Assembly: GCF_030814135.1 (NCBI RefSeq)
Contig: NZ_JAUSUQ010000002.1
Location: 186,001-250,000 of the forward strand
From: Caldalkalibacillus uzonensis
GTDB lineage: Bacteria > Bacillota > Bacilli > Caldalkalibacillales > Caldalkalibacillaceae
DNA length: 64,000 nt
Reading direction: 5' to 3'
How positions within the stretch are numbered: the first letter of the stretch is position 1; the number at the start of each line of letters is the position of its first letter. Below the pieces are notes generated by a model, which saw nothing but the letters and a program-made list of their open reading frames with translations, ran no database searches and was not told where the DNA came from. The translations under genes were made by a program, and so were the position numbers. Positions 5,874 through 22,856 of the stretch are shown here, one piece after another.

Positions 5874-6497
5874 ATGGAAATTGTAAGAACATACACTATG
5901 CTAACAATCGGTGGCCTGCTGCAGGGGATTGCCATGGCCATTTTTTTGTTCCCCCACGCCATTCCCTCCGGTGGAGCAGCAGCCATTGCCGTTCTAATGC
6001 AATACTTGCTGCACATTCCGTTTGAATTTACCCTCTGGCTGGTCAATTTTTCTTTACTGTCTGTGGCAATCAAATGGCTGGGCTATACCAGTGCTATTCG
6101 TACCATGTATGCGGTCTCTGTTGCTTCAATCACCATTAATCTGTCCTATGCCTATCTCCATTGGGCTAATGGCTATGTTTGGCTGGACTTGCTGTGGGGA
6201 AGCATGATCTTTGGTTTGGGTGTCGGCCTGTTACTACGTCAGCGGGCTTCCAACGGCGGCATGGTGATTTTGGCCCTGATTATTTCAGTTTATAAGGGCT
6301 ATCCGCCTGGCAAGGTCATGTTTTGGATCAACTCTACCATATTTTTGATTACCGCTGTGGTCATTGAATGGAAGATCATTGTTTTAGCTCTCCTGTGCCA
6401 ATGGCTGTCCACCCGTATCATCGACTTCATTTACAAAGCCGATATGATCAGGCGCTTAATGGCCTTTCTCACCGTTCTCGCCTGGCGAAGGCGATAG
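5874..6497 (+). CDS. YitT-family integral membrane protein (short form)
   Basis: A 207-residue membrane protein with five to six hydrophobic segments. The IPSGGAAAIAVLMQYLL stretch after the first helix and the later GLGVGLLLRQRASNGG-type loop match the YitT (DUF161) family. Usual members are about 280 residues with a C-terminal DUF2179 domain, which is absent here. The start ATG 5874 has AGGGAGAGG at 5855-5863. Function of the family is unknown. It stands between the exonuclease and the TctC gene, with about 90 bp on each side. Confidence 0.75.
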   Translation: MEIVRTYTMLTIGGLLQGIAMAIFLFPHAIPSGGAAAIAVLMQYLLHIPFEFTLWLVNFSLLSVAIKWLGYTSAIRTMYAVSVASITINLSYAYLHWANGYVWLDLLWGSMIFGLGVGLLLRQRASNGGMVILALIISVYKGYPPGKVMFWINSTIFLITAVVIEWKIIVLALLCQWLSTRIIDFIYKADMIRRLMAFLTVLAWRRR

Positions 6498-14974: not shown

Positions 14975-15253
14975 TCAGTCCTTGGGAAACACGTCGCTGA
15001 TCATATCCCATTCATGAATTTCACAATCCCGGGCACCGTGAAGTACGTACGGGTCGTTTTCCGCATAGCTTTTCGCTTCCTCTAATGACGCTGCTTTGTA
15101 GATGACCAATCCTCCGGCACCATCGGTAAAGCGGCCCATGGCTATGATTTTACCCTCTTCTCTTAATTTTTGCAGATAAGCCAAATGTTCAGGGCGGTAA
15201 GTTTGGCTTTTTTCTTGATCTTTCATCGGCAAAAAGACAGCAAAATATTTCAT
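14975..15253 (-). CDS. YciI-family protein
   Basis: A 92-residue protein of the YciI family (dimeric ferredoxin-like fold): MKYFAVFLPMKDQEKSQTYR, HLAYLQKLREEGKIIAMGRF with GGLVIY, and the C-terminal NDPYVLHGARDCEIHEWD. The conserved His-Asp pair of the family is visible (HLAYLQ and NDPY). ATG 15253 has AAGGAG 11 bases upstream; GTG 15265 would overlap it. It sits between a beta-hydroxyacid dehydrogenase and two exporters. The enzymatic role of most YciI proteins is unknown. Confidence 0.85.
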   Translation of the reverse strand: MKYFAVFLPMKDQEKSQTYRPEHLAYLQKLREEGKIIAMGRFTDGAGGLVIYKAASLEEAKSYAENDPYVLHGARDCEIHEWDMISDVFPKD

Positions 15254-15268
15254 GGCAGCTTTCACTCC

Positions 15269-16150: not shown

Positions 16151-16238
16151 GAGCATCCCCCCTTAAAGACAAAGTATCTTGCTGCAATTTCATCTTAAAT
16201 CTTTCGACAAAGGTTTCGTAAAATCCTTCCTGGACTTA

Positions 16239-17375
16239 CTAGATATGCAGCGCCTTTCTATTGAGCTTAAAAACAGAAATATCGTGCTTTGTTTTTCCTT
16301 TTACCGTTATTTCACTTAAGATTTCTCCTACGACACTGCTGAACTTAAATCCGTGACCAGAAAAACCGGCAGCAATCATAACATGATCATGTTCAGGGTG
16401 TTGGTCAATAATAAAATGCTCATCAGGTGTTTTCGTATAGATACAGATTTTCCCGTCAATGAGAGCGCCTGATGCATGGGGCATAAATGTTTCCAGAAAA
16501 CTTCTCAGGTCACTTTCATCACTATCATCAGCACCGAAAGTCCGGTTTATTTGATCGGGGTCAACGCTTTGGCCACCATCATGTCGACCTAGTTTTACGC
16601 CTGAACCGTCAATGCTTGGGAAACCATAATAAAGTTTATCGGGAAGTGCAAAGAAAAATGCTGGAAACCTCTTGGAATCATAAAAAGATTCATCCGCCTT
16701 AAACCACCCAAAAGCTTTGCGTACCGGTTGCAAAGGTAATTCTAACTCAGGAAGCAATTTTCCTGTCCAGGCTCCAGCAGTAACAATGAGTTTGTCACTA
16801 TGAAATGTGCCGTTATCCGTCATGACGGTCACACCGTCTTTGTACATTTTTATATCGTGGACAGCGGTATCGCACAATAAGCTGCCCTTGTTTTCCAACG
16901 TCAAATCACGATAGGCTTGTATACATTTCTCACTGTACAAAATACCTGAAGTCGTTTCCAAACAACCGACATAGTGCTCCGGAATTTGTATACCGGGCCA
17001 CCTCTTTTGCACTTCGTTCGCTTTCAAAATTTCCAGGGGCAAGTTGTACGTTTGGGCACTCTCAATCGTTTCCTTGATGAATGGGGAGAATACTTCTCCT
17101 ATACCTAATACACCTGTATTAATAAACAACTCCTGTTGACTTTCCTGTTCGAGTGCATACCATAGCTCCTGTGCTCTTAATGCCAGGGCGACATATTGTC
17201 GTCCTTCACCATATGCGTGACGTATGATTCTTGTACTGCCATGATGACTACCTTGATGATGGGGAGGATTAAAAGAATCAATGAGTAATGTTTTTATACC
17301 TTGTTTTGTTAAATAGTAACCAGCAGCTATTCCCATAGATCCTGCCCCAACAATGATGACATCGTATAATTTCAC
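16239..17375 (-). CDS. soxA: Monomeric sarcosine oxidase
   Basis: A 378-residue flavoenzyme that oxidises sarcosine (N-methylglycine) to glycine, formaldehyde and H2O2. FAD-binding GAGSMG is at 10-15, and the stretch GSHHGSTRIIRHAYGEG at 42-58 is typical. Cys311 in KICIYTKTPDEHF aligns with the covalent FAD cysteine of Bacillus monomeric sarcosine oxidase, and Lys261 in KLGRHDGG with the O2-activating lysine. The C-terminal AAGFSGHGFKFSS is also characteristic. N-methyltryptophan oxidase is the close alternative. GTG 17375 has GGGAGG 9 bases upstream. An own promoter and a structured leader precede it. Confidence 0.9.
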   Translation of the reverse strand: MKLYDVIIVGAGSMGIAAGYYLTKQGIKTLLIDSFNPPHHQGSHHGSTRIIRHAYGEGRQYVALALRAQELWYALEQESQQELFINTGVLGIGEVFSPFIKETIESAQTYNLPLEILKANEVQKRWPGIQIPEHYVGCLETTSGILYSEKCIQAYRDLTLENKGSLLCDTAVHDIKMYKDGVTVMTDNGTFHSDKLIVTAGAWTGKLLPELELPLQPVRKAFGWFKADESFYDSKRFPAFFFALPDKLYYGFPSIDGSGVKLGRHDGGQSVDPDQINRTFGADDSDESDLRSFLETFMPHASGALIDGKICIYTKTPDEHFIIDQHPEHDHVMIAAGFSGHGFKFSSVVGEILSEITVKGKTKHDISVFKLNRKALHI

Positions 17376-17539: not shown

Positions 17540-17602
17540 CCAAATAATCGTACAGTTTCTAAGAGACAGAAGGCAGGATGATGAGGTACTTAACGGCAAT
17601 TG

Positions 17603-18714
17603 TTAGCTCTCAATTTTTCTGTTGAGGTACTCTTCCGGTGACCCCACATACTTACCTTTGTTCATGTTGATCATGAAGTAGATCCCCAAGAACCACCAAC
17701 AGACAATGATTAACCACTCGTAGGGCCACACTAAAGCGGAAGGCATGCCAGGCAAATAGAGCACAATAAACCCGAAGCTCAACACAAGGGCAATCCAGCC
17801 AATCACTGTAGAACGGCCGGCTTTAAACGGGCGCTCCATGTCCGGTTCTTTCTTGCGCAAGGCTAGAAAAGCCAGCGCCACCATGAAATAGGCCATAACA
17901 ATGGCTAATCCGCCCGCATCCACCAGCCAGGCCGGAAGCATACCCGACTTAGCCATAGCATAAATGACGCGGCTCCCCCCAATGATAAACGCATTCCGGC
18001 TGGCCATAATGCCGGCTATACCACCCAGGATCATGATTTTGGCAAACAGTTCAGAAGCGAACACTGACCCCATGGCATCAGCAGTGGCCAGCGATGCATT
18101 TTCCAAGCTGGCTGGACTTAAGGCCATACCGACCCCGAAAATAATGGCTAAATACCACACAACAGCACACAATACTGCCACAATTAAAATTTTACCAATC
18201 GACTTAAAAGGAATATTCATTTCTTCAGCCGCTTGCGGGATCACGTCAAAACCGACAAACATGAACGGGGTCATAATGGCCACGGCCATGATTCCGGCCG
18301 CTCCTCCCACAAACAGAGGCTGCAAGTTAGCAACATCCCCGCTGACCGAGGAACCAAAAATGAGCATCAATCCAACCACAGCTAAAATTAAAGTGAGCAC
18401 CATCTGCACGATGGCTGCCGGCTTAATGCCCATGTAGTTTATTACGGTTACAAAAACAGAGCCGGCCATTCCCACAATGACCCAGGAAAAATAAACATCC
18501 CAGCCTGTAATAGCCCACCTGATAATTCGGAAAAAGATACTCCACTACGGTGGGCAAGGCCACTGCTTCAAAGGATGGCCCCCAGGGTTCCCCCGGAAAG
18601 GATCCAGGTTCCCGACAGAACCACCCAGCCCTAGCCAATCATGGCCCCAAAGGCCAGAAACAACACATCAGCCCGTGTCAGCACACGGTTAGACTGAGCA
18701 GTTTGTTTAGACAT
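17603..18714 (-). pseudogene. APC-family amino-acid permease, broken
   Basis: The gene begins at ATG 18714 (MSKQTAQSNRVLTRADVLFL), but codon 28 after GAMIG is TAG (plus-strand 18631-18633; probably TGG originally). The frame continues GWVVLSGTWILSGGTLGAI and then jumps to FEAVALPTVVEYLFPNYQVGY in another frame, so a segment of roughly 50-60 residues covering the next helices is missing. A further small frame change lies before the intact C-terminal 290 residues (from GMAGSVFVTVINYMG at 18475). Full-length relatives carry all 12 helices in one frame. Its start overlaps the end of the gabT remnant, so the two were once a coupled operon. Confidence 0.85.
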
Positions 18715-18940
18715 ACTGCTTCCCCCCTGCAGCCGCGGCAATACTCTCCTCCAGAATCGACAGCCCTTCCTGCAGCTCATGTTCTCCGGGAGCCACCTGA
18801 CACAGTTTCTCTGCCAAAGCAATATAAGGCTCATACATCATCACATTGAATCCGGTATGGATATACCGGTCCACTTGGGCATGGAGCGCTTCATTCACCT
18901 TCGGGTGACAGTGGCCTACATTTAAGGTGCCAATTGCACC
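18707..18940 (-). pseudogene. gabT: gabT remnant, internal plus C-terminal part
   Basis: Minus-strand reading from 18940 gives GAIGTLNVGHCHPKVNEALH, then a stretch ending LAEKLCQVAPG, characteristic of class III 4-aminobutyrate aminotransferases at about residues 60-120. It then passes directly to EHELQEGLSILEESIAAAAGG, which looks like the extreme C-terminus of the same family, and stops at TAA 18709-18707. Some 300 residues including the PLP lysine are therefore gone. The missing first 59 residues lie nearby on the opposite strand (19054-19230). Confidence 0.85.
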
Positions 18941-18999
18941 GAGGCAAACTTGTACCAGTACAACCGGTCAATCCAGTAAGGATGGCAATTTTTCCAATA

Positions 19000-19017
19000 T
19001 TGGCATCATTTTTGCTA
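19000..19017 (+). promoter_or_regulatory. Sigma-54 (-24/-12) promoter of gabT fragment
   Basis: TTGGCATCATTTTTGCTA matches the -24/-12 consensus TGGCAC-N5-TTGCW: GG at 19002-19003 and GC at 19014-19015 with exactly ten bases between. It stands 37 bp before ATG 19054. A short palindrome TTGTAC-CA-GTACAA lies upstream at 18950-18963. Confidence 0.75.
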
Positions 19018-19053
19018 GTTAGTGAATAGAAAATTTCCGTCAGGAGGGATAGC

Positions 19054-19230
19054 ATGAACCGTTATACCCAAATAATTAATCCGATTCCGGGTCCTAAAGC
19101 AAAAGAATTGTTAGATAAGCGCAACCGCTATGTAGCCAGGGGTGTAAGCAACAGTGCGGTCACCTTTGCAGCCCAGGCCGAAGGGGATTTAATTACCGAT
19201 GTGGACGGCAACCGGTTTATCAATTTTGCT
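19054..19230 (+). pseudogene. gabT: gabT remnant, N-terminal 59 codons (inverted)
   Basis: ATG 19054 with a good AGGAGGG site reads MNRYTQIINPIPGPKAKELL and continues to DVDGNRFINFA, the N-terminus of a 4-aminobutyrate aminotransferase. After Ala59 (GCT 19228-19230) the frame runs into unrelated KFIKKCP and stops at 19254. The natural next residues GAIGTLNVGHC begin at 18940 on the other strand. Flipping 18941-19230 would restore an unbroken N-terminal half with no lost codon. Originally the gene would convert GABA and 2-oxoglutarate to succinate semialdehyde and glutamate. Confidence 0.88.
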
Positions 19231-19362: not shown

Positions 19363-20196
19363 TTATTCGCCATTCCACGTCAATGTATATAAATCAGTTC
19401 TCCGATCATCTGACATACTGTAAAAAGAAAACCGAAGCTTTTGTTGTTCTGCAAGATTAATACTAGAAACAATAATGCTCCCATCCTGATCATCAGCTTG
19501 GTGTAATAGAGTCCCATCAGGATAGAAAATAGCTGATTTGCCAAAAAAACGAAGACCGCTTGATTCACCCACATGATTACATGTGATGAGGTATGCCGTA
19601 TTGTCTATTGCTCTGGCCATGGAAAATCTATAATAGGCTTGGTCATAAGGAAGCTCCCATGCACTGGGAGCTAACAACACATTAGCCCCCTTTTGTACAA
19701 GCAGCCGAGCTAATTCCGGGAAAGCCAAGTCCCAACAAATCATAAGCCCAAGGTTTCCTATTTCGGTTTTAATGGTGACAAGACGTTGTCCCGGGTCAAA
19801 AAAATCTTTCTCTAACGGAGTCAAATGTATTTTTTGATAGGTGGCCAACCTTTCACCGTTGGGACTAATCACATTAAATGAATTATAGATCTGTTTTTTA
19901 TCCCCTCTGGGATCGTCTCCCCTCTCAACAAATCCATAACCTAAATAAACATGGTGTTTCCTGGATAAATCTGCCATAAAATCATAAGCCGGTCCTTCTG
20001 CATTCTCTGCAAGCTCATGTAACCTTGGTGATAAAAAATATCCGGTTACAGCTAATTCGGGAAACAAAATGAAATGGACATGAGGATATTTTTGTTGACA
20101 ACGACGGACTAAAAGTCGCATCTTGTTTAAATTTGCTTGGATATATCCATTGGTAAACTCAGTTTGAATTGCAGCGATATTGGTTAATACTTGCAT
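19363..20196 (-). CDS. Carbon-nitrogen hydrolase (nitrilase superfamily)
   Basis: A 277-residue amidase-fold enzyme with the complete Glu-Lys-Cys triad: E47 in LFPELAVTGY, K122 in YQKIHLTP, and C154 in LMICWDLAFPE. Members hydrolyse amides or N-carbamoyl compounds (for example omega-amidase, N-carbamoylputrescine amidase). It is the last gene of the string ureohydrolase - aldehyde dehydrogenase - NCS1 permease, 30 bp after the permease, which points to a role in guanidino- or ureido-compound breakdown. The exact substrate is not decidable. A TTACTAA/TTAGTAA inverted repeat at 19325-19347 lies downstream. Confidence 0.85.
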   Translation of the reverse strand: MQVLTNIAAIQTEFTNGYIQANLNKMRLLVRRCQQKYPHVHFILFPELAVTGYFLSPRLHELAENAEGPAYDFMADLSRKHHVYLGYGFVERGDDPRGDKKQIYNSFNVISPNGERLATYQKIHLTPLEKDFFDPGQRLVTIKTEIGNLGLMICWDLAFPELARLLVQKGANVLLAPSAWELPYDQAYYRFSMARAIDNTAYLITCNHVGESSGLRFFGKSAIFYPDGTLLHQADDQDGSIIVSSINLAEQQKLRFSFYSMSDDRRTDLYTLTWNGE

Positions 20197-20226
20197 TCAT
20201 CATCACTCTTCCCTGTCTATACAATA

Positions 20227-21384
20227 TTAGACATGCTTATCCATAGGTTGATCAAACTGCTTTTCACTTGAATAGCCGAGCTTCATTAATCCCCAATAGG
20301 CCAGTCCAGACACAAAGAACGTTAAAATGGTTGAGCCGATATTCAACGGCTGAATATATGTGAAAAATAAAGCAAACAAAGCACCAATCACATATGCAAT
20401 GTAAGAATAAACATTAAACCCTTTAGTATAACGATAAATTCCTTGTGCGTCCGAAGCAATATCCCTAGCATGATAATTTCCTTTCTTAATAATAAAGAAA
20501 TCAACCAACACAATGGAAAAAATTGGGATATACATAGTAGCAATAAACAATACAAAATCAAAGAAATGGGTCATTAATAACTCCTTCAACAAAGCACCTA
20601 AAACAGTGATAACTCCTAAAAAGATAGCTGGCTTCCAAAATATCATGTTAGGGAAAATGTTTAGAAATGACATATTAGCACTATACAAAGCCATAACATT
20701 GGTCGAGACAACGGAGAGAAAGACAACAATTGCGGCAATAAGCCCAAACCCGTGTGCAGCCAACAAAACGGTTGGATCATACGTTTGTTCCAAGCCTTGT
20801 AAAATACTAAAACCACCAACAGTGGCACCAAGTCCCATGGCAATGATAGAAGATAACAAATAACCTACATATGTGGCAACCATGGCACGAGTTTCCGAGT
20901 TGGCATTACGGGTATAGTCACAAACAGAAGACATCCAAGAAAAGGCAGTAGCAACAACAATATCAAAGGCTATAATGGCTGTGATCTCGGGGTGCTTACT
21001 CACTTGCATTTGAATTAACGAATGCACGTCATATGTTGTAAATAATTTATAAAAGACTGAAAATGATAGCATTAACATGGCAATGGATATCAATCGTTGA
21101 GTAGTATCAACACCACGAATACCGTAAATGGTAATAAGAACGACCACTACCTGTGTTATGATCGTAAACAGGTTGACGTTGCTGTAACCCGTTAAAGAAT
21201 TGATGGCATAATTTAAACTCAACCCAGCCATATAGGCTTGAATCCAGCTCCATCCTACTAAGACTACGGTGTTTGCTAACGCAGGTAAAAGCGCCCCTTT
21301 TTGGCCGAATGCTGCACGGGTAATCACCATGGTAGGCAGACCTGTTTTGGTACCGACGAATGTTACCTGTTGAATGAATACCAA
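20227..21384 (-). pseudogene. NCS1-family permease lacking its N-terminus
   Basis: The 385-residue frame begins with VFIQQVTFVGTKTGLPTMVITRAAFG, which aligns with the region after helix 2 of nucleobase:cation (NCS1) permeases; members are usually 440-490 residues. The N-terminal tail and helix 1, which shape the substrate site, are absent: that position is occupied by the last codons of the aldehyde dehydrogenase gene in another frame (overlap to 21363). A TTG start is possible, but a functional carrier is unlikely. The rest of the frame is intact, so the loss may be recent. Intended cargo could be allantoin, hydantoin, pyrimidine or a related compound. Confidence 0.7.
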
Positions 21385-22856
21385 CCTGGTGCCGTCAGGT
21401 TTGAATTGGTATTAACGTGTTTATATTCAACATAACAGGCCAGACCATGGGGACCCAGTTCCCTTCCTAATCCACTATGTTTGAAACCTCCCCAAGGCGC
21501 TTCCACGTACGGAGTGTGATAACCATTAATCCAAATCGTCCCTGCCTGGAGCTGTTGAGCAATTTTTTTCGCTTTCTTTAGATCTTGGGTCAAAATGCCT
21601 GCTGCAAGCCCATAGCGAGTCCCATTCGCCAAACAAACCCCTTCCTCCTCAGTGTTAAAGGCTTGAACAGTACAAACGGGACCAAAAATTTCTTCCTGGA
21701 CTACTCTCATATTTTGGGACACACCCACAAAAACAGCAGGTCTAAGATAATATCCAGGCAAGTCATTAATGCCTTCCCCACCAGTTAAAAGAGTTGCTCC
21801 TTCTTTTCGGCCCCACTCTATAAAGTTTTGTACATGATTGAAATGAGCTTGGCTGATCACAGGTCCCAATTCGGTTTGTTCCTCTAGCGGAGACCCAATG
21901 CGAATGGCTTTGGTTTTTTCCACAAATTTTTTAATGAATGAACCAAAGATTTGGTGGTGAACAAGAATACGTGATGCTGCCACACAAACTTGTCCTTGAT
22001 TAAAAAATGCGCCAAATATGGCCCACTCTACAGCATCATCCACATTAACATCATCGAAGATAAGGAGCGGTGACTTCCCTCCTAATTCCAAAGAAATGCG
22101 CTTCAATGATTGTGCGCACTCCGCATAAACTCTTTTTCCTGTTTCTACACCTCCGGTAAAAGAAATTTTTCTTACGAGGGGGTCTTGCACAATAGCCCTG
22201 CCTACCTCTTCGCCACCAAGAACAAGGTTAAAAACGCCATTCGGAAGGCCAGATTCATCTAAAAGTTGGGTGAATTTCAAAATACTCAACGGTGTGATTT
22301 CGGCGGGCTTAAAAATAACTGTATTCCCAGCAGCCAATGCTGGAGCGATTTTCCATATACCCAATAATAATGGAAAATTCCATGGAACGATCAATCCACA
22401 AACTCCAATTGGTTCTTCAGTAATTTTGCTTACAGTGCCATCATCCATTTCTTTCGTCCACACTTGACGTTCCTTAACAAGATTTGCATAATAACGCAAA
22501 CATTTAATCGAATCCTCAACATCCAAGCGAGATTCTCGTATTGGCTTCCCTGTATTTTCTGTTTCAAGCCGGGCAACTTCCTCTGCATCTCGTTCCAACT
22601 TGTTGGCCACATCTTCCAAAATGGCCACTCGACAGGACATATCTCTGGCCCACATGCTGTCATAAAAGGCTGAATGAGCAGATCGGACTGCTTCATTAAC
22701 CTGTTCACGTGATGCTTCATGTACATGGGTCAATACTTTTTTTGTAGCTGGATTGATCAATGTTCGTCTTGGGCCCAGCCCATGCAGCCATGTCCCATTT
22801 ATATATAGATCTAACATTTTTTGACTTTCACTACCTTTATCCCTTATTCTTCTCAT
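21363..22856 (-). CDS. NAD(P)+-dependent aldehyde dehydrogenase (aminoaldehyde type)
   Basis: A 497-residue ALDH closest in style to betaine/aminobutyraldehyde dehydrogenases. Catalytic residues are visible: N160 in VPWNFP, E257 in LELGGKSP and nucleophile C291 in FFNQGQVCVAASR; the cofactor motif is FTGGVETG. ATG 22856 lies one base after the stop of the ureohydrolase gene; ATG 22817 (MLDLYING) is an alternative closer to the usual N-terminus. With a ureohydrolase upstream, likely substrates are 4-aminobutyraldehyde or 4-guanidinobutyraldehyde (inference). Its last codons overlap the truncated permease. Confidence 0.88.
   Translation of the reverse strand: MRRIRDKGSESQKMLDLYINGTWLHGLGPRRTLINPATKKVLTHVHEASREQVNEAVRSAHSAFYDSMWARDMSCRVAILEDVANKLERDAEEVARLETENTGKPIRESRLDVEDSIKCLRYYANLVKERQVWTKEMDDGTVSKITEEPIGVCGLIVPWNFPLLLGIWKIAPALAAGNTVIFKPAEITPLSILKFTQLLDESGLPNGVFNLVLGGEEVGRAIVQDPLVRKISFTGGVETGKRVYAECAQSLKRISLELGGKSPLLIFDDVNVDDAVEWAIFGAFFNQGQVCVAASRILVHHQIFGSFIKKFVEKTKAIRIGSPLEEQTELGPVISQAHFNHVQNFIEWGRKEGATLLTGGEGINDLPGYYLRPAVFVGVSQNMRVVQEEIFGPVCTVQAFNTEEEGVCLANGTRYGLAAGILTQDLKKAKKIAQQLQAGTIWINGYHTPYVEAPWGGFKHSGLGRELGPHGLACYVEYKHVNTNSNLTAPGWYSFNR

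Follow-up and report, generated by a model that had tools for sequence, protein, structure and literature searches.

Invertons have inverted repeats of 10-40 nt on either side, which are acted on by an invertase whose gene is often located nearby (PMC11892184). Small rearrangements at short repeats (deletions, duplications and inversions) have been counted in Salmonella cultures, with junction homology of at least 12 bp as the cut-off for a true inversion (PMC3411829). Our literature search found no study on micro-inversions in bacterial pseudogenes.

The gabT locus described here can be compared with both systems. Like invertons, it has an inverted segment of a few hundred bp at the 5' end of a gene and short inverted near-repeats; unlike them, it combines a short imperfect repeat with misfit junctions, and no nearby recombinase, functional target or promoter was found. 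As among the Salmonella rearrangements (PMC3411829), there are small deletions and an inversion whose junctions have at most modest homology. However, those were fresh culture events, whereas here the inversion is already present in an assembled genome and has no clear junction homology.

In the window (the whole stretch of 64,000 nucleotides that was analysed) gabT is split between the two strands. On the plus strand, an ATG is followed by 59 aminotransferase codons, the last residues being FINFA, while gabT continues with GAIGTLNVG... on the minus strand, from position 18940. When the segment between these points was re-inverted by computer, a single open reading frame was obtained, MNRYTQII...FINFA-GAIGTLNVG...GGKQYV followed by a stop codon, with no codons lost. 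The breakpoint position is accurate to about 1 bp. The coordinates of all features are collected in the table.

Table. Features of the gabT locus and its surroundings (window coordinates)
Feature	Coordinates	Strand	Remarks
Possible succinate-semialdehyde dehydrogenase relic, 41 bp	16198..16238	-	83% DNA identity to the G001 gene, E 1.5e-5
Amino-acid permease pseudogene	17600..18717	-	aligned to the G001 permease
gabT remainder	18707..18940	-	54 codons adjoining the inversion, joined to the final 23 codons and stop; aligned to L029 5157-6332
Inverted segment, 290 bp	18941..19230	+	relative to the ancestral (minus) gabT orientation; based on codon continuity upon re-inversion and the colinear intact G001 gene
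Leftmost 90 bp, ancestral upstream side of gabT	18941..19030	+	one frame open for 28 codons
Near inverted repeat, arm 1	18944..18952	+	GCAAACTTG; begins 3 bp inside the breakpoint
gabT ribosome-binding site	19042..19048	+	AGGAGGG, 5 nt before the ATG; identical in G001
gabT codons 1-59, inverted	19054..19230	+	GabT of G001 is 91.5% identical (amino acids)
Near inverted repeat, arm 2	19221..19229		CAATTTTGC on +, GCAAAATTG on -; finishes 1 bp inside the breakpoint
Carbon-nitrogen (nitrilase-type) hydrolase, NCS1-type permease, aldehyde dehydrogenase	19363..22856	-	upstream

In G001, a genome from the same genus, the orthologous locus contains an intact gabT of 450 aa. The agmatinase and sigma-54-dependent regulator genes located farther out are conserved between the window and G001, and the locus can therefore be considered orthologous. 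The G001 product scores 829 bits against a cut-off of 676 for NF005376 and also passes the TIGR00700 cut-off, so these two NCBIfam equivalog models identify it as a predicted 4-aminobutyrate--2-oxoglutarate transaminase. The window pieces align to this intact orthologue with about 90% amino-acid identity, but of the gene itself only a 136-codon relic is left in the window. At the DNA level, window positions 19031-19229 match 6532-6334 of the G001 sequence L029 and 18776-18940 match 6168-6332 (95% and 92% identity, respectively), i.e., two neighbouring stretches in opposite orientations. Since both pieces are colinear and adjacent in the intact G001 gene, we conclude from this alignment that a true micro-inversion took place in gabT. 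The original prediction of a segment whose re-inversion rejoins the gabT codons is thereby confirmed, both by the computed reading frame and by the one close relative compared, in which gabT is intact and uninverted. A contig scan beyond G001 yielded only GabT relatives with identities no higher than about 61%, too remote to inform the breakpoints. Two converging gabT paralogues were ruled out, as there is no second close copy in the genome and the pieces are adjacent in G001; the other aminotransferases of the same genome have at most 39% identity to the gabT product.

An assembly error or a chimera would also produce an inverted join, and the assembly is a draft comprising 53 contigs. However, neither the inverted segment nor its flank has a second copy in this genome, the segment is situated about 205 kb from the start of a contig that spans at least 250 kb, and the other lesions around it point to genuine decay of the locus. 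We consider such an artefact very improbable.

Besides the inversion, gabT has suffered an in-frame deletion of 942 bp (314 codons) at about 18778/18779, between ...LCQVAPGEH and ELQEGLSIL..., which takes out most of the catalytic domain. Judging by what is known of class-III aminotransferases, the lost region presumably includes the cofactor lysine (VSKSLAAG in G001). The re-inverted relic is thus an open frame of only 136 codons. That it stays open is due to the deletion being in frame, which has a one-in-three chance and counts against the decay reading. The dN/dS ratio of the gabT relics, 0.32 against 0.11 for the agmatinase and 0.15 for the regulator (both intact flanking genes), is only suggestive of relaxed selection, the difference not being significant (Fisher p 0.06 and 0.11). 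On the strength of its sequence, gabT is a dead gene.

The adjacent permease gene carries a nonsense codon (TGG to TAG, within 18625-18636) and deletions of 176 bp at about 18574, 11 bp at about 18513 and 105 bp at about 17930. Homology at the deletion junctions amounts to about 2 bp in gabT, about 0 bp for the 176-bp and about 8 bp for the 105-bp permease deletion; this 0-8 bp spread would fit illegitimate recombination. Of the two options offered by the original prediction, the 942-bp loss in gabT and the several permease lesions support the first, a one-off rearrangement in a dying gene.

The other option was an invertible promoter of the phase-variation type, with a site-specific recombinase flipping the segment and switching gabT on and off. 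It is favoured by the position of the segment, which contains the gene start, and by the short similar sequences, correctly noticed in the prediction, at both of its ends. These form a 9-bp near-repeat, in which GCAAACTTG and GCAAAATTG match as inverted repeats at 8/9 positions. Random pairs of break regions yielded a near-repeat of this quality in about 0.5-2% of trials (a post hoc test). Because the pair is rarer than expected by chance, it may have helped the inversion event. The 9-mer itself occurs four times in the window, about the expected number. Compared with the 10-40 nt of invertons (PMC11892184), 9 bp with a mismatch is short, and no second repeat pair at 255-285 bp spacing was found anywhere in the genome.

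The junctions do not fit an exchange inside the repeat either. With G001 taken as the ancestral state, a crossover inside the near-repeat predicts TTTGC-G-GGTGC on the gene side, but the window has TTTGC-CTC-GGTGC there. The gene-side junction TTTGCCTCGGTGC does not fit an exchange within the near-repeat, and therefore either the breaks lie outside it or a small insertion occurred alongside the event. On this evidence the inversion does not resemble a product of conservative site-specific recombination.

The original prediction had left the decision in part to close relatives and to genome searches for a site-specific recombinase and for further repeat pairs. The search for serine recombinases (PF00239) gave zero matches in this 3.88-Mb Bacilli draft genome, while the family is present in 10 of 14 control genomes; a serine-recombinase inverton was accordingly set aside. 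Four tyrosine recombinases (PF00589) were found, with open frames of 307, 310, 392 and 400 aa, located on contigs C1, C6, C9 and C12 and none on the contig of the window. The two shortest are, by size, probably the housekeeping Xer pair. A tyrosine-recombinase inverton was also set aside, as these four matches, all on other contigs, are the only ones, although an unlinked tyrosine recombinase might conceivably act here. The predicted promoter was the part of the segment description that was not borne out: the ribosome-binding site and the 59 codons are there, but no promoter-like match was found inside the segment (a weak test). Finally, a flip would restore only the 136-aa relic, so with 314 codons missing there is no working enzyme in either orientation. 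Without a functional gene, a promoter-like match, a fitting repeat and junctions or a nearby recombinase, a gabT on/off switch is extremely unlikely. We give equally little credence to a reversible switch, past or present, in which an unlinked recombinase acts through a minimal repeat of 9 bp and continues to flip the segment although the gene has decayed.

The outer part of the segment bears on a related possibility, a former inverton that is now dead and was frozen in the off position after the decay of gabT. The near-repeat is present, and the current decay makes the present lack of function compatible with past switching. However, G001 does not have the outer 90 bp (18941-19030) and hence the repeat arm within them, the start of its gabT lies 37 nt past the preceding gene, as would be the spacing of an operon member, the junction misfits an exchange inside the repeat, and there is no dedicated recombinase nearby. 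Past switching of this kind therefore appears most improbable. As the outer 90 bp have no counterpart in G001, only the window itself defines the outer breakpoint. No relative of these 90 bp was found in the same genome, in genomes of the order or in Pfam, and the 28-aa peptide had no convincing relatives among 200 genomes of the class.

A perfect dyad, TTGTACCAGTACAA, is located at 18950-18963 within the outer 90 bp; it has no second copy in the window and might be what remains of an operator.

The surroundings of gabT have changed as well. The succinate-semialdehyde dehydrogenase gene of G001 is gone from the window, with a doubtful 41-bp relic left at most; the protein-level match of this relic is weak (E 0.027). 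Its place, downstream of the gabT relic, is occupied by a gene for an FAD-dependent amino oxidase (N-methyl-tryptophan/sarcosine-oxidase-like, 16239-17375). On the upstream side, the hydrolase, permease and aldehyde dehydrogenase genes occupy the position that in G001 belongs to a second aminotransferase gene and another permease gene.

Synonymous divergence from G001 varies along the locus. The YciI-like gene (14975-15265) has a dS of about 1.6 and the neighbouring garR 0.63. For the agmatinase and regulator genes, about 8 kb from the YciI-like gene, dS is 0.12-0.16. These steps in dS suggest past recombination with another lineage.

Overall, comparison with G001 reveals, at the level of sequence, the inversion of gabT and the deletions in gabT and the permease gene. 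By far the most probable explanation is one small inversion, now probably fixed, in a gene that is dead, fixation being judged against one close relative only, G001. The ancestor would have had an intact gabT inside a GABA-catabolism gene cluster, as G001 has today. The cluster may then have become dispensable and been partly replaced by other catabolic genes, in the course of which illegitimate recombination would have broken it, producing the deletions in gabT and the permease gene. One event presumably flipped the 290 bp bearing the ribosome-binding site and codons 1-59, either via break repair or by template switching, perhaps aided by the 9-bp near-repeat. We infer both the illegitimate mechanism and the fixation of the inversion.

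For the organism, we expect no functional consequence of the inversion beyond its documenting the loss of the GABA-catabolism cluster. The locus constitutes a base-exact fossil of a micro-inversion in a bacterial pseudogene, with the ancestral state provided by a close relative. It also calls for caution, as an inverted gene start accompanied by a short repeat need not mean a phase switch.
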